Part shown: positions 3-10,606 of the stretch, piece after piece | How positions within the stretch are numbered: position 1 is the first letter of the stretch | Layout: each line of letters begins with the position of its first letter | Source: Bacteroidales bacterium | Lineage (GTDB): Bacteria > Bacteroidota > Bacteroidia > Bacteroidales > Bacteroidaceae | Direction: 5' to 3' | Assembly: GCA_015060835.1 (NCBI GenBank) | Contig: SUXT01000013.1 | Location: 1-42,985, forward strand | Length of the DNA stretch: 42,985 bases | Notes under the pieces: generated by a model | Seen by the model: only the letters and a program-made list of their open reading frames with translations | The model's database searches: none | What the model was told of the DNA's origin: nothing | Translations under genes and position numbers: made by a program

Positions 3-182
3 ATGGTCAGAATTGTTTTGATGTATTATCTCAATATGCAGACATTCTTCAATAAACCGGAGGAAGACCTTAAACTGATGCTAATAGAAGCTGCCGAACC
101 ACCACCGGAAGAGACATTAAATTCATATAGGGGGCTTGTCCAAAATAAAAGTTCTCTCAACTCCTCTTTTTCAAGGAGTTGA
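3..182 (+). CDS. Possible 3' end of a plus-strand gene, cut by window edge
   Basis: A frame open from the first bases of the window runs to a TGA at 180-182 and reads as a charged, acidic tail (MQTFFNKPEEDLKLMLIEAA, then a PPP turn). I do not recognise it. Its last codons lie inside the hairpin at 152-187, which is unusual for a real gene end, and a competing minus-strand frame covers the same bases. It may be the tail of a gene that begins outside the window, or a chance open frame. Confidence 0.25.
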   Translation: MVRIVLMYYLNMQTFFNKPEEDLKLMLIEAAEPPPEETLNSYRGLVQNKSSLNSSFSRS

Positions 183-187
183 GAGAA
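152..187 (-). terminator. Hairpin downstream of the GTPase operon
   Basis: A perfect 14-bp inverted repeat (152-165 with 174-187, 8-nt loop). On the minus strand it is followed by ACTTTTATTTT, so it would end the leftward Fic/GTPase operon about 40 bp after the last stop codon. Confidence 0.6.
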
Positions 188-227: not shown

Positions 228-1925
228 TTAGTTCTCGTTATCAATAATCTCGATAAAATCGACATACTCGTCCTCAAGTTCTCTTATAGAATTTGAAAGT
301 TGAGCATTCTTCCTTGACATTTGAATTAATTCATCCTTTGACTTGTTAACCTCATTACGCTTATTAATATAATTATCAAGTATAACACCCATATATTGTT
401 CAAATTGAGACTTTACTTTATTAATTTCAGATTGATATGATGTTACAAGTTGCTCTTTTGAGTCTTGAATCTGTTTCAATCTTTGCGACTCCTTTTTATC
501 CTCTCTAACTTGCATCCATATATCTATTCCTGCAGTAATTACAGGGATAGCGAACTTTGCCACTTTGGCAATATTAGAAGCCCATTTTACAGCCTCCCAT
601 GGCTTAAATGATTTACCAAAGAAGTGTCCGACATTCAAAACGAGTTCATGAAGTGTTGAACCTGAAGCTTGACTTACACCTCCAAAAAACTTGTTTACAT
701 TTGGGGCGAGTTTACTAACTTGTGAACCACCATTCCTTAAAAGATCAAGGCATCTTCTTTGTGTTTCAAGGCTTTTTTTCTCCTCAATGCTTACTTTAGG
801 TGAGTTAATTTTCGTTTCGATCTCATCACAATATCTAACCAACGAATCTTTATCTCCAAACTCGTTTATATCATTGAGTAATCTTTCGTAATTTTGGTTA
901 ATAGCTTCATCAATCTGTATTGATGTATTTTCAATTATCAACCCTAATTTTTTATTTAATTCCTCTTGCTGTAGATTCCACTCTGCTTCTTTTAATAAGC
1001 CTATACCATCTGACAATTTTATTACCTCTGCCATAGCTGATGAATCAAATGCAGACAAGAGATTGTTTACATCTCGCTTCATTTCTTTCATACTAAAACT
1101 GAGCTTCATCTCAAATTGAGTGTAAAAATCAGACAACGTTTTATCAATAGACGACACCACTATGTTCTTCAAATAACTTTGAAGTATTCGGATTGGTGTA
1201 TCAAACTGTTTCTTAATAACACCTTTCTGCGACACAAACGCATTAAGCATGTCAACAAAGTGTTCAAAATTACTCAGTTCTATAAATTCTTCGTCACCAG
1301 AATCCTCTCCCTCAATAAAATCAGCGGCATCAATAAATGCTATCGGAAACTCATCTACATTATATCCTCGTTCGCTAAAAATCTTAGCCAATGACGATGT
1401 GTATATTGCAGACAACTGATCAAAATCGCCTGCCTCCATGCCCATTTTATTAACAACAATGAAAATTTTATCAGCGAAGTGCTGATTGTAGGCAAGATCA
1501 ATAAAGTTGTTAAAAACAACATCGTCAAACAGCTGACTTGTAATCACATAAAATATCAAGTCGCATTCTTTTAATGCTGCCTTAGTGGCCTCATCGTGAG
1601 ATTCAACCTTACCAGCCAGAATTCCCGGAGTATCCATTAATACAATGTTATTCCAGCGATATTCTGAAACTATGTCGGTTGCGACATTCGCATCTATTTT
1701 GATATCTTTTCGTCCTGTTAATGCAGAGATAATAGTAGATTTACCTGAACTATATTGACCCACAAACGCCAATCGCAGTTCTTTTCTTTCATCTGAAGTT
1801 GTCAACTCTTCAGACATCTTAATCACTAAGTTCTCATTATCGGTCCCCAAAAGCAACTTTTCCGTCTTTTCTCTTAATGCCATCAAACACTCATGATATT
1901 TGGCATAATTAATTTTTGTATTCAT
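228..1925 (-). CDS. LeoA-like dynamin-family GTPase
   Basis: A 565-residue GTPase. The P-loop is GQYSSGKST at residues 56-64, a switch-I Thr lies near 83, DTPG is at 98-101, and NKMG at 159-162 replaces the usual NKxD. A long helical region with charged coiled-coil stretches follows, with a hydrophobic/amphipathic patch around 440-470 that could touch membrane. The length and order match bacterial dynamin-like proteins of the LeoA type (about 570 residues). The ATG lies 3 nt after the stop of the preceding GTPase gene, so the two are surely co-translated and probably act together, as paired bacterial dynamins do. Base composition is clearly more AT-rich than the housekeeping genes at 9-14 kb. 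Membrane remodelling or phage defence is inferred from family and pairing, not seen directly. Confidence 0.8.
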   Translation of the reverse strand: MNTKINYAKYHECLMALREKTEKLLLGTDNENLVIKMSEELTTSDERKELRLAFVGQYSSGKSTIISALTGRKDIKIDANVATDIVSEYRWNNIVLMDTPGILAGKVESHDEATKAALKECDLIFYVITSQLFDDVVFNNFIDLAYNQHFADKIFIVVNKMGMEAGDFDQLSAIYTSSLAKIFSERGYNVDEFPIAFIDAADFIEGEDSGDEEFIELSNFEHFVDMLNAFVSQKGVIKKQFDTPIRILQSYLKNIVVSSIDKTLSDFYTQFEMKLSFSMKEMKRDVNNLLSAFDSSAMAEVIKLSDGIGLLKEAEWNLQQEELNKKLGLIIENTSIQIDEAINQNYERLLNDINEFGDKDSLVRYCDEIETKINSPKVSIEEKKSLETQRRCLDLLRNGGSQVSKLAPNVNKFFGGVSQASGSTLHELVLNVGHFFGKSFKPWEAVKWASNIAKVAKFAIPVITAGIDIWMQVREDKKESQRLKQIQDSKEQLVTSYQSEINKVKSQFEQYMGVILDNYINKRNEVNKSKDELIQMSRKNAQLSNSIRELEDEYVDFIEIIDNEN

Positions 1926-1928
1926 ATT

Positions 1929-4403
1929 TTAGCTTCTTAAGATTTTCATTTGGGTTGCTTGTTCTATGTTTTGTCTTTTGTTCTCCGAAAGGGGAATATC
2001 ATATAAGTATGTTAATGACTGCTCCCGCCAATCTCTTTTTACAGGAAAGAGTTTAGCAAGTTCGGTATTGGTTGCGGCGTTAATCTTTTTTTTATTTTGT
2101 TTTACACCTGCAAATTCCAATATCCTTAATCCTATAAGCGAATTTATAGAATCTTCATTCGATCTGCAAGTTTCAATAAGGCTTTGCAATTGCTTGACAA
2201 TATTTTGAACATTTAGTATATATGCCGATAAAATATCATTTATGGATTTATACATTTTAGCTACTGATTCTTCCGTACTTGCAAGAGCTTCCGATTGAAT
2301 AGAATCGATTGAATTGTCAATTGATTCATCCAACTGACCTTTTAATTTTTCTGTTGCTTTTCTTATTTTCTCAGCTTTTGATGTAAATAAAGAGGTGATA
2401 AATGAAACTCCCAATCCAACACCTATTGTCACTAACGCTACAACCCATCCTGCAGGATTCCATATATTTGCAATTGCAAACGGAGCTACGGCCGTAATTA
2501 TACTTCCAATAATTCCAACTCCTAATCGAGTATTGGTTATGCTTTCACCCTTAATTCCATCACTTCTTTGTGGCGCATTGAATAAAAACTCTATATCCGA
2601 AGCCAATTCTTCCATTTCAGCCTTTGCCTTATCGCTAAAATCATTCATTCTCGCCTCAAGTTTATGGTTTAATTTTGAGTATTTAGATTTTACGACTTCG
2701 TCATTTTGCCATTTCTCACCAGCTTCTTTATCCTCATAATGGTTTCGTGCAAACAAGTCTGCTCTATTGTGTAGTTCAGCTCTTACACCTTCGAATATTG
2801 TGTTCACATCACTTTGTATACGCGTATTCTCCGTATCTATAAAATTTTTAAACTTATCTCGCTTCTGCTTTAATGCTTCTACTCCATCATTCAATTGTTT
2901 ACAATCCTCCTCAATCATAGAGCACATCGTATTGATTTGATAGGCAGTACCATCAATTACGCTCAAGCTTTTTTTAATATCTCCAGACTTGTGAACTTCG
3001 CTCTTTACTGACCTTATAAATGTTATAATATTTGAACCCTCGATAAGCAGTTTCGATGTTTGCTCGTCAAATTCGCCAGATAGTCCTAATTGTGCAGCCA
3101 GCAAGTGCATAGGAATAATCTCGATTGCATCCATATTGTACTTTCCATCCAATTTATCATGAATACGAGATATGTGTCCTTCAATTGCTTGAGGGCCACC
3201 ATCCTCACGCCAAGCAAGTGGATTATCTAAAAACCTTTTTAATCTAACACTTTGGTTTAGATTACTTTTGACATTGAGAATAATATATAGAGGCTTATTG
3301 CGTTCTTTTATAGTTTCAAAAAAGTCAAACTCTGTTTCTTGAATTGAGTCACTTGTAACTACATAACATATAATATCCGCCTCATCAATTATTGACTTTG
3401 CTATTTCTGTATCAACATCACCTCCTGGCGCGCCAATTCCTGGAGTATCCACTACTCGCAACAGATTCCAATACCAACTTCTATTAAATCTTGTTGTGCG
3501 CAATCTTCCAACACCTATATCATCATTATCTTGTTGGGTAATAACCTTGTGCAAGGTACTTTTACCGGCCTTAGTTCTACCCATAAACGCAATTGTAAAG
3601 TACCGAATATTTCTTTTTTTCTTCTCTAATACCTCTACATTCTTCACTAATGATGTATTGAGCATCTCTTGAAAATCCGCACTAATCGATTGCACAATCT
3701 GCACTACCTCCGACACATCTTTAGATGAGATTTTTTCTTTAACTGCCCCAGCCAATTTATCATTGGCTGTCTTCAAATCGGCATTAATGTCACCAATAAT
3801 TCTAGATACTCTATCAAAGTCTACAATAGCGTTATTTGTTATATCCTCAATTGCAGTAGAATAGCCCAAACTCCCCAACAGCCAATCAATTAATTTTTCC
3901 TTACTATTGTGGTTTAAAACATCATATAATGTATTTTCGACGGTTCCCACAATTCGCTGCAATTTTGATAAACGCAATTTTTCGATACGTTCATCAGAGA
4001 GCGATGCCTCTCGATTAATTATAGCCTCGACATCGATATTTAACGCCTTGCTCACATTTCCTATAATTTCGTACTCGCGTCGAGAGACAAAATTATCGCC
4101 ATATGCTACTCTAACAATCAAGTCTACAATCTCTTCTTTCTCTGCATTCGAAAGATTTTTGAGGCGTAAATAATTATATAAATCTTTTTCGTTTATACAA
4201 GTTTCATCATCTGCAAAAATTTCAGTTCTCTTTTGGTGCAATTCAGTTTTATCAGATAAATCCAAGTATGAATCTAATACATTTAATTCATGCTCATTTA
4301 TCTCCTTATCGGCTGTTACCACATAACAACCCAACAAATAAGCGAGTTGTTTGTATGAATAATTAGTCAACATCATATTTACCACATATTTTAATTTCTT
4401 CAT
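1929..4403 (-). CDS. TerB-like N-domain plus dynamin-like GTPase (LeoBC-like partner)
   Basis: Taken from the ATG at 4403 (824 residues). A longer frame starts at a TTG at 4424, but the ATG forms an ATGA overlap with the Fic stop codon, a classic coupling signal. Residues 1 to about 130 resemble a TerB-like helical domain (YKQLAYLLGCYVVTADKEI, then a second similar block ending YGDNFVSRREYEII). The GTPase domain has GRTKAGKST at 275-283 and DTPG at 319-322; the G4 motif is a divergent NVKSN. A 48-residue glycine-rich hydrophobic stretch at about 627-674 looks like a membrane-inserting hairpin. The C-terminal part is helical. The pairing with a LeoA-sized GTPase just downstream suggests a heteromeric dynamin. 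Annotation pipelines may split or mislabel it as an isoniazid-inducible/dynamin-family protein. Confidence 0.75.
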   Translation of the reverse strand: MKKLKYVVNMMLTNYSYKQLAYLLGCYVVTADKEINEHELNVLDSYLDLSDKTELHQKRTEIFADDETCINEKDLYNYLRLKNLSNAEKEEIVDLIVRVAYGDNFVSRREYEIIGNVSKALNIDVEAIINREASLSDERIEKLRLSKLQRIVGTVENTLYDVLNHNSKEKLIDWLLGSLGYSTAIEDITNNAIVDFDRVSRIIGDINADLKTANDKLAGAVKEKISSKDVSEVVQIVQSISADFQEMLNTSLVKNVEVLEKKKRNIRYFTIAFMGRTKAGKSTLHKVITQQDNDDIGVGRLRTTRFNRSWYWNLLRVVDTPGIGAPGGDVDTEIAKSIIDEADIICYVVTSDSIQETEFDFFETIKERNKPLYIILNVKSNLNQSVRLKRFLDNPLAWREDGGPQAIEGHISRIHDKLDGKYNMDAIEIIPMHLLAAQLGLSGEFDEQTSKLLIEGSNIITFIRSVKSEVHKSGDIKKSLSVIDGTAYQINTMCSMIEEDCKQLNDGVEALKQKRDKFKNFIDTENTRIQSDVNTIFEGVRAELHNRADLFARNHYEDKEAGEKWQNDEVVKSKYSKLNHKLEARMNDFSDKAKAEMEELASDIEFLFNAPQRSDGIKGESITNTRLGVGIIGSIITAVAPFAIANIWNPAGWVVALVTIGVGLGVSFITSLFTSKAEKIRKATEKLKGQLDESIDNSIDSIQSEALASTEESVAKMYKSINDILSAYILNVQNIVKQLQSLIETCRSNEDSINSLIGLRILEFAGVKQNKKKINAATNTELAKLFPVKRDWREQSLTYLYDIPLSENKRQNIEQATQMKILRS

Positions 4404-5467
4404 TGTGTCAAAAACACTCTCCAACTACCATCCTTCTCACCACGCTCGACATATTTCTTTTGGATCAATTGAACAAGTAATTTCTGAATGGCAGCAATAC
4501 TTATACCGGTAATCTCTTTCATATCAGCAAGTGTCAATGTAGGATAGGTTCGCATAGCATTTAATATCTTCGTGTAGTTAGGAGTACGGAAGGCTATTCG
4601 TTCGCCATCATACCACCAAACATTCTCATTCTTCTCGCTTACAAACAAGACGTCATTGTATACTTCGGTAGCGACCAAATCATTGAAGTATTTCAGGAAC
4701 GGACGGATATTCTTAATGTCAGCATGTGCTCCATCACTTGGTAGGGGGCCAACCTCAAGATCTGCCTGATGTAAAGCTTCCAAATACTCACTCTTCTTGC
4801 GACTACGGACTACAATCATCGGATAATCATGGCGAGTAAGAATAAAGTTTACCATCAGTCGGGCAATACGACCATTACCATCTTCAAAGGGGTGAATGCG
4901 GATATAACGATAGTGGAACAATGCTGCTAACTCTACAGGTGTAAGTTTACCCTCTTGCTCTGCCTTGTTATACCAATCCACTAAGTCTGCCATCAGACTG
5001 GGAGTTTCTTCGGGTGAAGCATATTCAAATCTATCACCATATCGTGTAATCACACTATTAGGACGTGTTTTATATTGCCCGGCATGTATTACATAGCTCG
5101 TCTGAACTCCACCTGGCAAATTACGATATACCGTATAATCCTCACGAAGTAATGTCTGGTGTAGTGTTCTAATAAAGTTTTGCGTCAAAGGAGTTTCTTT
5201 TACCTTAGCCTCTTCTGTCATCATTCGTAAACCCACATTGCTTGCTGTCATCTCTTGAACATCACGCACGCTTGCCTCTCCAATCACCTTGCCGAACAAC
5301 AACAAGATTTCCGTCTGACCATAAGTCAACGTATTACCTTCTATGTGGTTGCTATTATAGTTGAAGTCCACTGTGAAACGACGACTAAGTCTATCCTTAT
5401 CCTTTTCGGATAGTGGTTGCAACTCTTGCCATGCAGTCAAAGCCTTCTTAATATTAAGATATTTCAT
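4400..5467 (-). CDS. Fic-domain AMP-transferase, class II autoinhibited
   Basis: A 355-residue Fic protein. The full catalytic motif HPFEDGNGRIAR begins at His192. An N-terminal SNHIEG (Ser39, Glu43, Gly44) fits the inhibitory [S/T]xxxE[G/N] motif that marks class II Fic proteins, which carry their own antitoxin helix in cis. The last 80 or so residues look like a winged helix (LTLADMKEITGISIAAIQKL), as in many stand-alone Fic regulators. Family members usually transfer AMP from ATP to a protein hydroxyl. It is the first gene of the operon: its TGA overlaps the ATG of the next gene as ATGA. That coupling suggests that it modifies or regulates the two GTPases, or a shared target. This last step is inference. 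Confidence 0.9.
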   Translation of the reverse strand: MKYLNIKKALTAWQELQPLSEKDKDRLSRRFTVDFNYNSNHIEGNTLTYGQTEILLLFGKVIGEASVRDVQEMTASNVGLRMMTEEAKVKETPLTQNFIRTLHQTLLREDYTVYRNLPGGVQTSYVIHAGQYKTRPNSVITRYGDRFEYASPEETPSLMADLVDWYNKAEQEGKLTPVELAALFHYRYIRIHPFEDGNGRIARLMVNFILTRHDYPMIVVRSRKKSEYLEALHQADLEVGPLPSDGAHADIKNIRPFLKYFNDLVATEVYNDVLFVSEKNENVWWYDGERIAFRTPNYTKILNAMRTYPTLTLADMKEITGISIAAIQKLLVQLIQKKYVERGEKDGSWRVFLTQ

Positions 5468-5495
5468 ACATCACCTTATTTAGTATCACTCAGTG

Positions 5496-5503
5496 CAAAT
5501 ATA
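5496..5503 (-). promoter_or_regulatory. Bacteroidetes -7 box of the Fic/GTPase operon
   Basis: On the minus strand the sequence reads TATATTTG, an exact TAnnTTTG match, about 30 bp upstream of the fic ATG. No convincing TTTG -33 box sits at the expected 19-20 bp. Confidence 0.55.
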
Positions 5504-5520
5504 CAAAATGTTTTCAATAT

Positions 5521-5538
5521 GGTTGTACAACTACAACC
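5521..5538. promoter_or_regulatory. Palindromic operator candidate upstream of fic
   Basis: GGTTGTA-CAAC-TACAACC is a perfect 7-bp inverted repeat with a 4-bp centre, 17 bp upstream of the -7 box and overlapping the -33 zone. The site and position fit a repressor or autoregulator; the Fic C-terminal winged helix is one possible binder. The binder is inferred. Confidence 0.4.
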
Positions 5539-5574
5539 TTTTTCATTGTTTTCTGCAAATATTTCTGCCGCGTC

Positions 5575-5597
5575 CCTTCGCGTTTGTAACGCGAAGG
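5575..5597. terminator. Hairpin after the lipoprotein pair
   Basis: CCTTCGCGTT and AACGCGAAGG form a 10-bp stem with a 3-nt loop, about 50 bp downstream of the lipoprotein stop at 5646. There is no clear U-tract on the minus strand, so it may be a REP-like palindrome rather than an intrinsic terminator. Confidence 0.4.
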
Positions 5598-5645
5598 ATT
5601 GAGTATAAGCATCAGTGATGCGCTTAAAGTTGCCTGAGTACATGC

Positions 5646-6293
5646 TCACTCGGACACAAGTCTCCCCCTTCCTTTACGAAGCAGACGCTTGATTATTGCG
5701 CCATTGCTATCCACAGCTACATTATATACCGAAATCTCACCCTCGCCGTTGTATACACTTTCAACATCATCAAAGCGATATTGGGTATAAATCATTTCAT
5801 ATTCGCCGGTTGCCGGTTCTATTCTGCAATATTCAATATCGCTACTTTTGCCAACTGTGGCAAAGTCTATGAATTTCCCATTCTTGCCGTATGTTGCCAA
5901 GATGTTATAACAGCAGGGATAACCGCCGCTCTTTACCACATCGCAGCAGGTCTCCATTGCAACCAAATGGAAGTTATCTTGCTCTATTCTGTAACAAGGT
6001 CTGTAATAAAGCTCTTTTACTACACAATCCCAATCATCATCATAAGGCAACAGGAAAGAGAAAAAATACTTGTTAATTTCGGGACTGCATATTTCAGTTG
6101 GATATTTTTCCCTTACTCTGAAAAAAGATTTATCCGGCAGCTTGTTGCCATATTGAGCAAATTGTGTAATGAAAAAGTCTAACTTTGATTTATTAGCCTC
6201 TTCCACGCAAGCGATGCCTTTGGTACTGACCGGAGTGCCTGAACAGCCCGAAAGCAGCATGATATACGCTATAAAAAATATTGTATGTTTCAT
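5646..6293 (-). CDS. Lipoprotein, paralogue of its neighbour
   Basis: The protein is 215 residues from the ATG at 6293; a TTG two codons upstream is less likely. MKHTIFFIAYIMLLSGCSG is a lipoprotein signal with lipobox LSGC, so it is exported and lipid-anchored. The mature part shares a pattern with the next gene upstream: an N-terminal helix before 'QFAQYG', an 'FFRVREKYPTEICSPEI' block, 'YYRPCYRIE', 'NILATYGKNGKFID' and an 'RFDDVESVYNGEGEISVYNV' block. The fold and role are unknown to me. Only 10 nt separate it from the upstream paralogue's stop, so the two are one transcription unit, probably a tandem duplication. Confidence 0.75.
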   Translation of the reverse strand: MKHTIFFIAYIMLLSGCSGTPVSTKGIACVEEANKSKLDFFITQFAQYGNKLPDKSFFRVREKYPTEICSPEINKYFFSFLLPYDDDWDCVVKELYYRPCYRIEQDNFHLVAMETCCDVVKSGGYPCCYNILATYGKNGKFIDFATVGKSSDIEYCRIEPATGEYEMIYTQYRFDDVESVYNGEGEISVYNVAVDSNGAIIKRLLRKGRGRLVSE

Positions 6294-6303
6294 CGTCAAA
6301 CTA

Positions 6304-6945
6304 TTAAGGATTAAGCAACGATACTTTTACATTCTTCTCCTCATTTGTTAGGTTTTTACCTATTATACCATTGTCGTCCAAAGTTACTTTATACACAAAA
6401 ACATCACAATCGCCTTCATAGGCACTTTCAATATCTTTGAATTTATATTGTATGCAAGTGATTTCGTTTTCATTCACAGGTTCAATCTTATATGCAGATG
6501 CTCCGCCTTCACTCACACCCAAGACTACCATATCGATAATATCTCCTTGCTTGCTGTATGTTGCCAGTATGTTGTCGTCGTATGAATATCTCTCCCTTTT
6601 CATTGACAGAAGATGATAGTTTTTCATCTCAATCCTGTAGCAGGGCCTATAGCAATACTCCTTTTCATCAGTGTCGCAAGAGTGCGGTAAATATGCAGAA
6701 AAAAGGGACTGACTTATTTCAGGACACCACTTTTCGTTGGGAAATTGCTTACGGAGAGTAAAGAACGATTCATCAAGTCCATTGCCATCGAATTTTGCAA
6801 ACTGAGACAGATAAGAACCAAATTCTGCTTTATTAAATTCTTCCTCGCAAGCGATGACTTTCTCTACACCACTGTTTTTATTGTCGCCGATTGAACAGCC
6901 CGAAAACAGCAGTACGCACACTACAAATGCAAATGAAATTTTCAT
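6304..6945 (-). CDS. Lipoprotein, paralogue of its neighbour
   Basis: The protein is 213 residues from the ATG at 6945. The longer frame to 6969 would start inside the terminator hairpin at 6966-6993. MKISFAFVVCVLLFSGCS is a lipoprotein signal (lipobox FSGC). The mature part repeats the pattern of the downstream gene: EEEFNKAEFGSYLSQFAKF, ESFFTLRKQFPNEKWCPEI, YCYRPCYRIE, NILATYSKQGDIID and a final KDIESAYEGDCDVFVYKV block. The conserved Cys in both mature domains (WCPEI/ICSPEI and YRPCYRIE) could form a disulphide. I do not recognise the family; the role is unknown. Confidence 0.75.
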   Translation of the reverse strand: MKISFAFVVCVLLFSGCSIGDNKNSGVEKVIACEEEFNKAEFGSYLSQFAKFDGNGLDESFFTLRKQFPNEKWCPEISQSLFSAYLPHSCDTDEKEYCYRPCYRIEMKNYHLLSMKRERYSYDDNILATYSKQGDIIDMVVLGVSEGGASAYKIEPVNENEITCIQYKFKDIESAYEGDCDVFVYKVTLDDNGIIGKNLTNEEKNVKVSLLNP

Positions 6946-6965
6946 GTTGTTCCTATTTAAACACA

Positions 6966-6993
6966 GCACTCCCGCTTTAAGAAGCAGGAGTGC
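6966..6993 (-). terminator. Terminator of the DUF3857 operon
   Basis: GCACTCC (6966-6972) pairs with GGAGTGC (6987-6993), with an inner GCTT/AAGC pairing, 21 bp downstream of the stop codon at 7015. The U-rich run after it on the minus strand is short. Confidence 0.55.
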
Positions 6994-7014
6994 CGGTTGC
7001 TATTTATCATAATA

Positions 7015-8643
7015 TCACTTCTTTGCAACAACCTTGCGGTAGGCAGGATTGTTCCAGAGTCTCATAATCTCGTAGAACTCCTTGTATTTTCCTGCGGGAA
7101 TAATATCCATGTTGAGAGCAATTGAACGCTTGATGACAATCTTGCCACTCTCGTTGACGATGGAGATATTCACACTGCCGACAGAGTTCTTGATGCTCTT
7201 GCTTACATTCTTTGTTACCGAGGTTACACCATCGAGGGCGATTGTGTACTCGTTCTTCTCGTTTACTTTATAAGGGATGGCAAATGCCGCAGTACGTTCC
7301 TTGTTCAGACGTGTGATACTCCATTTGTCTACGCATCCTGTGGCGGGCGAGGGAAGAGTATAGGTTATATATCCACCATTCTCGGCTATCTTGCTCTCTT
7401 CGGAGAAGGTGCGGCGGTTGTCGTTGCCACGCAAAGGAGTTACGTCGAATTTGTAGTCCTGAACAGCTTTTTTGGCAGAAAGGGTTACATTGCCTGTGAG
7501 GGTAATTTCGGTATCGGTAGGCTCCATCGCAATGGCATTGCCCGCAAGGTCGAATATCGAGTATTGCGATGTGCGCCACTTGAGAAGCGACTCGCCAAGA
7601 GTACGTACCGAGTAGAGACGGCCGCCGCAGAGTACCATATATTCTGCAACGTTGCGTATGGTCTTTACCTCCTGAGCAGCAGGGAAAGCTACCACAGCCT
7701 GTGCGCCCAATCCTTCGGCACGCATCAGCTTAGCCATGGCAAGAGCTTTTTCTGCCTCCGTACCGTAGGCTGTCTCCATCACTCTACCGCACTGACGTAC
7801 GCTGTTTGCTGTGAGGAAGGGCTGTACCTTGCAGCTACCCAATCCGTTGACAATGTATTTCTGAATAGCTTCGGCACGCTGAGTTTCATTGGTTGCTCCC
7901 TGCATATATTCGCGGGGAGCACGGCGCAGGTCGCGTGTCTCAATAGTGAGAGGCATCAGATTGTCGGCAAGGCTCTGCGATGTTGTTATCGACAGATGGG
8001 GTACGCCGCCGTATCCATAGGGTGTGTTCTCTTCGCCCTTTGCCGATTTTACACCACTGAATGTCCATGTGTAACGGCCACCCTTCACTGTGGGCTTCAC
8101 CTTAGAATCGGTGAGGCTCCAGCGGAGGTCGGTTCCTTCGGGGAGATTCACTATTACCTGATATTTATCAATATCCGCTCCTGCAACGCCTATAACCTCG
8201 TCAATGTCAAGAGAGCCATAAACGCCCGGTTCGGTGGTTATGGTGTACTCAAGGTAGCTTGTCGCACCAAGTTCAAGGCCTGTGTGGGTGATTACAAGCT
8301 CTGTCAGCTTATTGTAATCGGGTGCCTTCGCTGCAATGGAGGGAAGCACATAGTTGAAGGCATTTGCGGGTGTCTTTATCACAGTTCCGTCCTTCTGCAC
8401 TGTGTAGGAGGTGTCTACCTTTATCTTCTGGTATTCGGGATTATATACCACGAATGTCTCTCCGAAGAGTGTGAAGAAGGAGTGGTGTGTATTGTATCGC
8501 AACACCTTTGTTACCTTCTGTGTGATACCTCCGTCGGTTGTAAGGGTATATTCGTTTATTATCTTCTTGTATGTTCCGTCTGCTGCGGCAAACAGCTGTA
8601 TGGCGAACATCATTGCCAATGCAAAAATTATATTTCTTTTCAT
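7015..8643 (-). CDS. DUF3857 exported protein with degenerate transglutaminase domain
   Basis: The protein is 542 residues from the ATG at 8643, with a clear signal peptide (MKRNIIFALAMMFAIQLFAAA). The N-terminal half fits DUF3857 (beta-rich, 'TSYLEYTITTEPG'). The middle aligns in order with the transglutaminase-like domain of the gene just upstream, but the catalytic residues are gone: the GVCKDKA block is replaced by AYGTEAEKA, the FNHCV block by AEYMVLCGG, and LDPTW by a segment without that Asp. It is therefore probably a non-catalytic partner. Its ATG lies 4 nt after the upstream stop, so the pair is co-translated. Localisation is probably periplasmic or outer surface. Confidence 0.8.
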   Translation of the reverse strand: MKRNIIFALAMMFAIQLFAAADGTYKKIINEYTLTTDGGITQKVTKVLRYNTHHSFFTLFGETFVVYNPEYQKIKVDTSYTVQKDGTVIKTPANAFNYVLPSIAAKAPDYNKLTELVITHTGLELGATSYLEYTITTEPGVYGSLDIDEVIGVAGADIDKYQVIVNLPEGTDLRWSLTDSKVKPTVKGGRYTWTFSGVKSAKGEENTPYGYGGVPHLSITTSQSLADNLMPLTIETRDLRRAPREYMQGATNETQRAEAIQKYIVNGLGSCKVQPFLTANSVRQCGRVMETAYGTEAEKALAMAKLMRAEGLGAQAVVAFPAAQEVKTIRNVAEYMVLCGGRLYSVRTLGESLLKWRTSQYSIFDLAGNAIAMEPTDTEITLTGNVTLSAKKAVQDYKFDVTPLRGNDNRRTFSEESKIAENGGYITYTLPSPATGCVDKWSITRLNKERTAAFAIPYKVNEKNEYTIALDGVTSVTKNVSKSIKNSVGSVNISIVNESGKIVIKRSIALNMDIIPAGKYKEFYEIMRLWNNPAYRKVVAKK

Positions 8644-8647
8644 AGGA

Positions 8648-10606
8648 TTATTTCTTCTCAAAAACCAATACTCCGTTTGTCATCTCCTTGAATGCATTCA
8701 CTGCTCCGCGGAACTGTGCCCAATCGGAAGCCTCGTAGACGCGTTTGCCAAGTGATATTTTCTGCTCGGCGCGGAGCTTTGTGCCCTCCTGAGCAATGCT
8801 GCCCGACGCGCTTGCAACCTCTCCTTCAGACGAGAGGCTCTTTGCATCCTGCACCATCTTGTAGCCCTTAGGCAGTGTCATTGTCTCCTTAAGTTCAACG
8901 TAGCGCGAGCAGGCATCTTTGAAGGCATATTTGCGTTCCTTGACGCTTGTGTCCACTCTGAGGAACGAACATACACCGCTGTAGAGGCCTGAGAATACAA
9001 GAGGCTTGCACATTATCACACCCTCGCCCACTGTGGCATATGAGGGGATTGTGAATGTAATCTTAAGCTCGATAGGCGCCTTTTGGTAATCCTTTGCATC
9101 CTTGCAACTGTAGCCTGTGAGTATAGCCTGAGGCGATACTGCGAGCAACTGGTTCTCAAGCGAACGGTAGATGCGGTCGGCGTATCCCTGAAGGAAAGGT
9201 GAACGTACAGAGCCGTCAGACTGTCCCTCGGCGTTTACTGTAAATTCTCCGGTGAGAGTGCCATCGGGCGACAGTGCAGTCTTTGCATTTATCTTCAGAT
9301 AGTGGTTCATGGGGTCCGATACGGGTGTGATGCAGAGGTCGGAACCTTCGGGAATACCGGGAAGGTAGTTCTGCTGCTGTTCGGCGCTCGACCATAGCTC
9401 GCGCTTGAATGGTACCCATGTGGGGTCGAGGGGCATATATGTGCCATCTTCGAGCTTAACCACCGTAACGCAGTGGTTGAAGTGATCGGCAGGGATTGTC
9501 TCAATGCGCGAGCCTGCCATTGTCATTGCAGGGTAAGCCTCGAAGCCTGCCATACGCAGCATGGAGATGAGCAGGGCTGCCTTGTCCTTGCAGACGCCGC
9601 AACGGTCTGTGAAGTTCATCTTTGTGTTGTGCAGCGTGTAGCCCTCGCCCTTACCCATAGGAATACCGGAATAGCGCATATTGTCGGCTACCCAGTGGGT
9701 GAGGATGGAGATTTTCTGCATATTGTCTTTTACACCTTTCAGAAGTTCGTCAACCTTTTTCTGTGCCTCAGGTGTAGGCTCGAAACTGCCATAATCCTCG
9801 TTCACTCCATAGAACCACAGAGACTTGTCCTCCCATTTTTCAGTTGAAGAGAGCATCAGTTTGGGGGCAACATCATAGAGTGCCACCATATTCTTTTCGC
9901 TCTTGAAGGGGAGTGTCATCGACTGTGAGAATGTGTAGAGATTACGGCCGCCGCTCTTGCGTACCGACGAACTGCACTCGCCCTGATAGAATTCATACTG
10001 TACGGGCTTGCCATCGGGCACACTCACGCTGTACACCTTCTTAACGGTAGGATAATCAACCCAGAAGGGGACAATGTCGTAAAATTCTCCGCGCATAGGG
10101 GGCACGAAACGCTCATCGTCGTCGGCGGGAATATCTGCAAGCAGGGCGTATGTGAAGCCCTTTTTATTGATTGTGTAATCTACAATGTCGCCGGGATTAA
10201 GCTCGCCAAGCTCTATCATTATCTGTCGCGCACCCCAATAGATGGCGCGGGCAGGGGCTGCATAGTCGCAGGTAGTTGCTGTGTCGATGTTGCGCACTGT
10301 GCCGTCGGCGCCATAGACTGTTACTTTGTCGAACTGTGCAGAGGCTGTCAGAGGGTCGTAGTCGTACACAAGCACGCGGTGGGCAAGAGCACCGCGTCTG
10401 TCCTGTATGCGCAGTGCCTTGTGGATGGTGAAACTGCCGGAGCCGTTGTCCGTTACACTTACACCGATACTGTCGAGCAGCACCGCCACTGAGGCTGAGG
10501 AGAAATTCTTATCTCCATTTGCCTTTGCGACTGCTGCCGACCAATCTTGCGCCATTGAGACGATGCTTGCCAACAGCGCGAAAAGAGTGATTGATATTCT
10601 TGTCAT
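8648..10606 (-). CDS. DUF3857/transglutaminase-like exported protein
   Basis: A 652-residue protein with signal peptide (MTRISITLFALLASIVSMAQ). DUF3857 covers roughly residues 40-230. A transglutaminase-like domain follows with an intact triad: Cys339 in DRCGVCKDKA, His378 in FNHCVTV and Asp394 in LDPTW. The C-terminal part is a DUF2569/DUF3858-like beta region. Members of this family are common in Bacteroidetes; the substrates are unknown, and peptidase or cross-linking activity is possible. It is the middle gene of a three-gene operon: 11 nt after the nucleotidyltransferase fusion and 4 nt before its own catalytically degenerate paralogue. Confidence 0.85.
   Translation of the reverse strand: MTRISITLFALLASIVSMAQDWSAAVAKANGDKNFSSASVAVLLDSIGVSVTDNGSGSFTIHKALRIQDRRGALAHRVLVYDYDPLTASAQFDKVTVYGADGTVRNIDTATTCDYAAPARAIYWGARQIMIELGELNPGDIVDYTINKKGFTYALLADIPADDDERFVPPMRGEFYDIVPFWVDYPTVKKVYSVSVPDGKPVQYEFYQGECSSSVRKSGGRNLYTFSQSMTLPFKSEKNMVALYDVAPKLMLSSTEKWEDKSLWFYGVNEDYGSFEPTPEAQKKVDELLKGVKDNMQKISILTHWVADNMRYSGIPMGKGEGYTLHNTKMNFTDRCGVCKDKAALLISMLRMAGFEAYPAMTMAGSRIETIPADHFNHCVTVVKLEDGTYMPLDPTWVPFKRELWSSAEQQQNYLPGIPEGSDLCITPVSDPMNHYLKINAKTALSPDGTLTGEFTVNAEGQSDGSVRSPFLQGYADRIYRSLENQLLAVSPQAILTGYSCKDAKDYQKAPIELKITFTIPSYATVGEGVIMCKPLVFSGLYSGVCSFLRVDTSVKERKYAFKDACSRYVELKETMTLPKGYKMVQDAKSLSSEGEVASASGSIAQEGTKLRAEQKISLGKRVYEASDWAQFRGAVNAFKEMTNGVLVFEKK

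Follow-up and report, generated by a model that had tools for sequence, protein, structure and literature searches.

A class II Fic gene ahead of an Eleos-type GTPase pair in a Bacteroidales genome: probably a portable controller of defence cassettes

In a 42,985-nucleotide (nt) stretch of a Bacteroidales genome (GenBank assembly GCA_015060835.1, contig SUXT01000013.1, positions 1 to 42,985; here called the window), a gene for a Fic protein lies immediately ahead of two genes for dynamin-like GTPases, raising the question of whether a predicted AMP transferase is a working part of a dynamin-based system or stands there in some other capacity. An initial annotation had suggested a dedicated Fic-dynamin system, in which Fic would either AMPylate both GTPases or serve as a toxic effector released when the GTPases act. 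The order, coordinates and strand that it gave for the three genes are correct, and all three are tightly packed. Comparison with related loci leads to a different reading: the locus is not a new Fic-dynamin weapon and more probably combines a portable Fic controller, with a C-terminal winged-helix-turn-helix (wHTH)-like region, and an Eleos cassette. By analogy with described regulators, it is most likely that the window Fic represses fic-leoBC-leoA and would release it under an infection-linked signal. The features concerned are the following.

4400 to 5467, minus strand: fic, encoding a class II Fic protein of 355 amino acids (aa) with a C-terminal wHTH-like region, the proposed controller (assigned from Pfam, the solved structure 3cuc and motifs).
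1929 to 4403, minus strand: leoBC, encoding a TerB-fused LeoBC-type dynamin-like GTPase, 824 aa from the ATG at 4403 (the start may be 4376 or 4373).
228 to 1925, minus strand: leoA, encoding a LeoA-type dynamin-like GTPase of 565 aa (assigned from PADLOC LeoA, Pfam and 4aur).
5521 to 5538, no strand: operator-like palindrome GGTTGTA-N4-TACAACC, 71 nt 5' of the fic ATG and over the expected -33 region.
5496 to 5503, minus strand: Bacteroidetes-type -7 box TATATTTG, -36 from the fic ATG; the consensus behind the call, TAnnTTTG, is the one we assume for such promoters.
152 to 187, minus strand: terminator-like hairpin 3' of leoA, a resemblance noted by eye.

The initial annotation had itself named rarity of fic beside such GTPase pairs as evidence against its model, and rarity is what was found: fic adjoins one of ten assessable LeoBC/LeoA-type pairs, that of the window. 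By blastp and motif searches over the whole fetched stretch, no fic accompanies the other nine, namely L031, L032 (the same contig as G476, with 921 nt upstream only), L034, L039 (G043), L040 (G240), L041 (G643) and the plasmid loci L232, L233 and L234. Counted as pairs were L040 and L041, which are distant and split over several open reading frames (ORFs), and L039, whose two GTPases are weakly similar to those of the window; L033, at a contig edge, was left out. Of the five plasmid matches to LeoBC, H1, H2 and H5 were opened, H3 and H4 having the same coverage and identity as H2.

The surroundings of Fic genes were compared at 70 loci, the window and 69 others (those of G301 and G252, at 46–47% identity, are not among them). 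Nine loci, the window included, encode Fic proteins at least 95% identical, and in three of them the contig ends inside fic. Each of the six readable loci of this tight group carries a same-strand cassette, different in all six, whose first gene begins between -4 (or +23) and +87 nt relative to the fic stop codon. These cassettes, followed by three behind slightly more diverged Fic genes, are:

Window: the Eleos pair.
L077: a 1422-aa metallophosphatase protein (PDC-S60, E 1.2e-43; PD-Lambda-4_A, E 7.7e-21).
L078: a DUF4209/PDC-S39-type protein (weak match, E 1.6e-06) and a 600-aa protein.
L227: a TIR-WD40 protein.
L253: a NACHT protein with a hydrophobic start (PDC-M54A, E 4.6e-12), cut by the contig end.
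L256, positions 683–6614: a dynamin-type GTPase, a 223-aa protein and a HerA-type ATPase, behind a 96% identical Fic whose 5' side is cut.
L214: a 91% identical Fic, then a 149-aa protein, a nuclease-like gene and Gabija (GajA, E 4.5e-224; GajB, E 2.4e-212).
L258: a 92% identical Fic, with an SMC-like protein as the second gene behind it (PADLOC Ppl, E 4.5e-16).
L259: a 92% identical Fic, with a nucleotidyltransferase-HepT pair 169 nt away.

Five of the six tight-group loci fall in one supported clade (97/97), L227 being too short to be placed in the tree. With Fic proteins of 95–98% identity preceding unrelated cassettes, a Fic locked to the dynamin pair is not supported, and because its sequence is constant while the partners change, it is unlikely to be a dedicated AMP transferase for the GTPases. 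The model of AMP transfer to both GTPases, or of an effector released by them, draws some support from the intact catalytic and inhibitory motifs and from the tight-group cassette at L256, one of six, whose first gene encodes a dynamin-type GTPase (Dynamin_N, E 1.5e-15; LeoBC model, E 1e-09). Against it stand the nine fic-less pairs and the Gabija, TIR-WD40, NACHT and metallophosphatase cassettes behind close Fic copies; we consider it highly improbable, a dedicated Fic-dynamin system being rejected on the neighbourhood counts.

Two of these cassettes deserve mention in their own right. The L256 genes may form an undescribed dynamin-HerA cassette. At L078 (positions 5817–9337) the DUF4209/PDC-S39-like gene, behind a 97% identical Fic, overlaps the 600-aa gene, which has no family matches, by 4 nt, a candidate defence pair.

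When the identity limit is lowered to 85.5%, 28 loci are included, 25 of them readable downstream (three contigs end in fic). A same-strand ORF of at least 90 aa begins within 200 nt of fic at 12 of these 25. At nine of those 12, either this ORF or the gene after it has a match to a defence or toxin-antitoxin family, known or candidate (the L078 match being the weak one given above); the other three are L080, with a gene of unknown type, L216, with a sugar transferase, and L262, with a nitroreductase. As an upstream control, the nearest gene (first ORF of at least 120 aa only) was examined at nine of these 12 loci; a clear defence match came up once (L216), besides a single weak match to a protein that is a dehydrogenase by Pfam. 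Close copies of this Fic therefore lie upstream of several different defence cassettes, with defence or toxin-antitoxin genes behind nine of 25 and no close same-strand gene behind 13. The clear upstream match, a HEC-06/Orf5-type gene (L216, positions 1015–2763) directly 5' of an 86% identical Fic, indicates that Fic can also come after a defence gene.

The boundaries of the shared DNA point in the same direction. When the six tight-clade loci are compared in pairs, homology ends on the 3' side close to the fic stop, at -12 to +7 nt from it for 14 of the 15 pairs and at +32 for the last. The 5' edge varies: in pairs whose members both have upstream sequence it lies 76 to 327 nt ahead of fic, and only the sister locus L257 is homologous over a longer distance. 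The island in the window is preceded by g548 (7015–8661). In three congeners a gene of 123–130 aa, which we take to encode ribosomal protein L19, comes directly after g548; in a fourth congener, G021, fic occupies the place of this 123–130-aa gene. This is consistent with an insertion after g548, the far side lying off the window's contig. Solo fic genes at L083, L084 and L094 stand between direct repeats (78 bp at 97%, 39 bp at 90% and 22 bp at 100%); these carry the operator region on the upstream side and a copy of it on the downstream side, as though promoter and fic moved or duplicated together as a cassette. Fic looks like a portable 5' module and not like the partner of one system.

The sharp edge at the fic stop and the repeats could also be explained if the 3' end of fic were a recombination anchor only, with cassettes swapped behind a conserved gene and regulation incidental. 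We hold this to be extremely unlikely, in view of the operator-helix covariation described next, which suggests that promoter and Fic have been kept together as a regulator; the roles of anchor and controller are in any case not exclusive.

The promoter elements that had been read from the letters are both there, the -7 box at its place and the operator-like palindrome in perfect form. The exact palindrome occurs once in the window's 2.64-Mb genome, where a reversed control pattern has no copy. In 12 fic-bearing genomes there are six exact copies, each of them upstream of fic. Relaxing the pattern by one mismatch gives 23 sites in the same 12 genomes, 12 of them at fic, one per genome. The palindrome stands at -67 to -73 nt 5' of related fic genes.

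Its sequence varies with that of the protein. Of the 70 loci, 62 could be used for this comparison, 48 with a match to the recognition-helix pattern and 14 without; those dropped were cut on the 5' side (L227, L256), cut on the 3' side (L103, L229, L257, L269) or had less than 120 nt upstream (two loci). Among 24 Ser-type helices, 22 go with a GGTT palindrome and two with none within 150 nt; among 23 Asn-type helices, ten go with GGTG, three with GGTA and ten with a weak palindrome or none; the single Ala-type helix goes with GGTG. Where there is a palindrome, base 4 of the half-site agrees with the first recognition-helix residue in 36 of 36 cases (Ser with T, 22/22; Asn or Ala with G or A, 14/14). 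A dinucleotide shuffle, repeated 100 times per locus, reached the observed score in 0–3% of runs for rows with at least five matching arm positions, except for L096 (6%). The 14 loci without a helix match comprise ten with other C-termini and four (L094, L095, L226, L231) whose wHTH-like ends the pattern missed, L094 having a GGTAGCC site that matches at five of seven positions. Nine of the ten Fic relatives whose C-terminus reads as non-wHTH have no palindrome, and the tenth has an AT-rich five-of-seven match. At nine Ser-type genes measured, the site begins 34–35 nt ahead of the first base of the -7 box and lies over the expected -33 region; at five Asn-type genes measured it begins 17–19 nt after that base, over the expected start site. 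Both placements would suit a repressor.

The window Fic matches Pfam Fic (E 2.7e-21) and carries the catalytic motif HPFEDGNGRIAR at residues 192–203 and the class II inhibitory motif SNHIEGN at residues 39–45, so that its earlier assignment to class II stands; by these motifs it is a predicted class II Fic AMP transferase. The patterns HPFx[DE]GNGRxxR and N-terminal [ST]xxxE[GN] occur together in 60 of 63 Fic proteins, the window's included and seven truncated ones left out. Among solved structures, the Fic-domain protein 3cuc is the best match (E 3.2e-99). The C-terminal region is best called wHTH-like, the indications being MarR_2 and IclR helix-turn-helix (HTH) matches below the Pfam cut-offs, the helix pattern, and a low-confidence single-sequence fold (mean pLDDT 38) whose least poor part consists of three helices and two strands.

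Described regulators give this arrangement a precedent. CccR, a class II Fic protein with an HTH, is reported to act as a dimer on palindromes near -35 and -10 and so to repress the promoter of its own gene; its authors regard its regulatory and toxic activities as independent and state that nearly nothing is known of class II Fic proteins (PMC9755527). The window Fic shares with it the class II inhibitory helix, the Fic motif, the C-terminal HTH-like region and palindromic sites at its own promoter, a predicted combination that makes it CccR-like. It differs in that CccR is described as a secreted effector that regulates its own gene, the 10-bp half-sites being separated by 26 bp (PMC9755527), whereas the half-sites in the window are 4 bp apart and the window fic heads defence cassettes. 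Another wHTH Fic protein, CbFic2, is described as binding DNA and being stimulated by it, with no specific sequence known (PMC10628234).

Controllers encoded upstream of diverse immune operons are an established class, which includes BrxR/CapW, CapH with CapP, CapK with CapS, and RptR (PMC9122601, PMC13373217, PMC12255303). The likeness lies in a DNA-binding regulator encoded upstream of diverse defence operons (BrxR, CapK with CapS) or first in a defence island (RptR), and in inverted or palindromic repeats at the regulator's promoter (BrxR, RptR). The difference is that the proposed controller here is a Fic enzyme, the word "Fic" being absent from the main text of all three papers. No Fic controller of defence operons appeared among the literature matches listed, which comprised titles and the starts of abstracts, few subscription journals and no bioRxiv preprints. 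What is new here is the modular association, along with the operator covariation.

Several observations weigh against cassette control, and the first of them also speaks for the possibility that two independent systems share a promoter without functional coupling, Fic being a self-contained, autorepressed toxin or a Sofic-like abortive-infection protein. The 13 of 25 readable close copies without a same-strand ORF of at least 90 aa within 200 nt of fic stand alone, and cassette control therefore cannot be the only role of this Fic. The upstream control covered one gene per locus, against up to several genes downstream, and most of the genome surveys are samples of larger groups. Allowing one mismatch, the palindrome occurs at 11 sites away from fic in the 12 genomes (reversed control: six). 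Two Ser-type loci, L081 and L082, have no operator in the first 150 nt, L081 showing a one-mismatch form and L082 one at -196; of the ten Asn-type copies with a weak palindrome or none, five show repeated GGTGGT half-sites on reading. The operator criterion fixed GGT at the end of the left arm, and the covariation counts are non-independent, being inflated by relatedness. L227 and L256, which belong to the six tight-clade loci, are truncated on the 5' side, with their promoters outside the sequence.

Fic alone as a defence protein is already known as Sofic (PMC12249575, PMC11514479), described as a single-protein defence and a stand-alone toxic protein (PMC12249575). The window Fic resembles it as a class II-type Fic and in matching the PADLOC models PDC-S04 (E 1.5e-35) and SoFic (E 2.1e-32); it differs in its closeness to 3cuc, matches to SoFic structures being far weaker (~2e-05). 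Set against independence are the closely spaced same-strand cassettes at six of six readable tight-clade loci and the presence of diverged fic genes inside defence operons. Among these more diverged copies, L226 lies between type I methylase and specificity genes, and L101 among type I genes, of which the specificity and restriction genes were scanned; L102 was assigned to type I restriction by likeness to L101 alone, without a scan. At L104 fic lies between PglX and PglZ-BrxL (BREX). The Fic proteins of L101 and L104 do not have the wHTH-like end, and L104 has no palindrome. At L263 fic lies between a 979-aa gene that was not scanned and PglZ-BrxL, with a wHTH-like end and a GGTGGTA palindrome, and at L096 it lies 442 nt before an HpaII-type restriction-modification pair. 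Taken together, two uncoupled systems seem to us an unlikely, if serious, alternative, and we judge it probable that an Eleos-type pair here stands behind a portable controller, which would govern the cassette in the manner of CapW/BrxR through its promoter, its operator and an autorepressor of the class II Fic-wHTH type.

What such a controller would govern is recognisable from the GTPases. Compared with PADLOC, the 824-aa protein has LeoBC as its best model (E 6.6e-95, model positions 20–567 of 601) and the 565-aa protein LeoA (E 3.6e-84, positions 19–551 of 559), which bears out the kinship with LeoA and LeoBC proposed for them at the outset. The LeoA-type protein also matches the solved LeoA structure 4aur (E 4.1e-13) and Pfam MMR_HSR1, Dynamin_N and DLP_helical; the LeoBC-type protein has an N-terminal TerB domain (Pfam, E 7.1e-07) followed by the GTPase domain, and includes hydrophobic segments. 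The GTPase motifs of the two proteins read as intact: their P-loops are GQYSSGKS and GRTKAGKS, DTPG is present in both, and LeoA has NKMG; LeoBC departs from the norm in that NVKS stands where the G4 motif, usually NKxD, is expected. The structure predicted for LeoBC from a five-row alignment has a mean pLDDT of 59.7. An adjacent LeoA-type and LeoBC-type GTPase is the defining pair of Eleos, and by model matches and adjacency (a gap of 3 nt) the window pair looks like Eleos. Its order is that of L031, L032 and L034; compared with Eleos as a type, it differs in the TerB domain and in being headed by fic. In L031 (Prevotella histicola, positions 5244–6020) a 258-aa ORF without a Pfam match overlaps the leoBC start and may be a leader gene of a fic-less Eleos pair.

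The pair is rare. With strict thresholds, and with the window's own genome included each time, LeoBC was found in two of 393 genomes of the order (model search), three of 399 of the family (window protein as query) and one of 395 of the phylum (alignment query); a scan of a species collection gave four loci. Strict thresholds were adopted since a loose family model matched 101 of 101 genomes and 14 of 14 controls through the generic GTPase part.

These elements suggest how the locus may work. With the predicted promoter, the operator and fic ahead of leoBC-leoA, a Fic dimer would bind, through its C-terminal wHTH-like region, the palindrome that overlaps the expected -33 region, as conservation and covariation suggest; judging by the operator position and by CccR, this binding would keep transcription of fic-leoBC-leoA low, because membrane-type GTPases may harm the cell. 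Infection might then change Fic (its ATP or AMPylation state, a bound partner, or loss of the protein), so that repression is lifted and the dynamin-like pair is made; that the pair would act on membranes is suggested by its family and by the hydrophobic segments of LeoBC. AMPylation might take part in the release, and AMP transfer could be the signal, a toxic output or unrelated. A bolder version, a family of enzyme-type defence controllers in which Fic-wHTH both represses and senses infection through its nucleotide-transfer site, AMPylation of itself or a target switching on whatever cassette lies behind it across Bacteroidales, be it Eleos, Gabija, TIR, NACHT, dynamin-HerA or another, strikes us as doubtful, though worth entertaining.

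Some details of the locus remain to be described. The ATGA at the fic/leoBC junction is present as letters (ATG 4403–4401, TGA 4402–4400), and the 3-nt gap between leoBC and leoA is as the initial annotation had given it. The translational coupling that it had drawn from the overlap is unsure: in alignment the LeoBC relatives of L032 and L034 start near Met10/Met11 of the window protein, so the leoBC start may be 4376 or 4373, 23–26 nt past the fic stop. The terminator proposed 3' of leoA has arms at 152–165 and 174–187 followed, on the minus strand, by a T-rich stretch; seen by eye, these are consistent with a terminator in likeness. A plus-strand ORF enters from the contig edge, its final 59 codons occupying positions 1–182 and pointing towards the operon end. 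Between fic and g548, at 5646–6969 on the minus strand, lie two genes of 217 and 221 aa with lipoprotein-like starts by eye; a Pfam search gave no match for them, and they were not found in the sister locus of G021 (L257).

Fic relatives, by contrast with the GTPase pair, are common: at E ≤ 1e-80 they occur in 31 of 201 genomes from the family, at E ≤ 1e-90 in 23 of 295 from the order, and at E ≤ 1e-60 in 10 of 44 from the window's own genus and in 4 of 19 and 10 of 66 from two other genera. L227, in G201, belongs to another family, and the 95% identity of its Fic across the final 173 residues points to horizontal transfer. A phage collection held no LeoBC relative (E ≤ 1e-10) and no Fic relative (E ≤ 1e-40), and a scan of viral contigs with the LeoBC alignment found none; the viral-contig Fic loci (80 kept of 84) are all distant, with best-segment identities of 20–58%, and one plasmid Fic has 61% identity. 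Carriage by phages or plasmids was rejected on these results.

How cells keep costly defence systems silent before infection is still an open question, and descriptions of controller families are few. Bacteroidales have further modules that closely resemble this one but are followed by other cassettes. If the reading given here is true, a near-identical Fic-wHTH protein before at least six different cassettes would represent a further, enzymatic controller family and would provide a role for class II Fic proteins. It would also supply a rule for searches, by which genes close behind this Fic module may be taken as candidates for defence.

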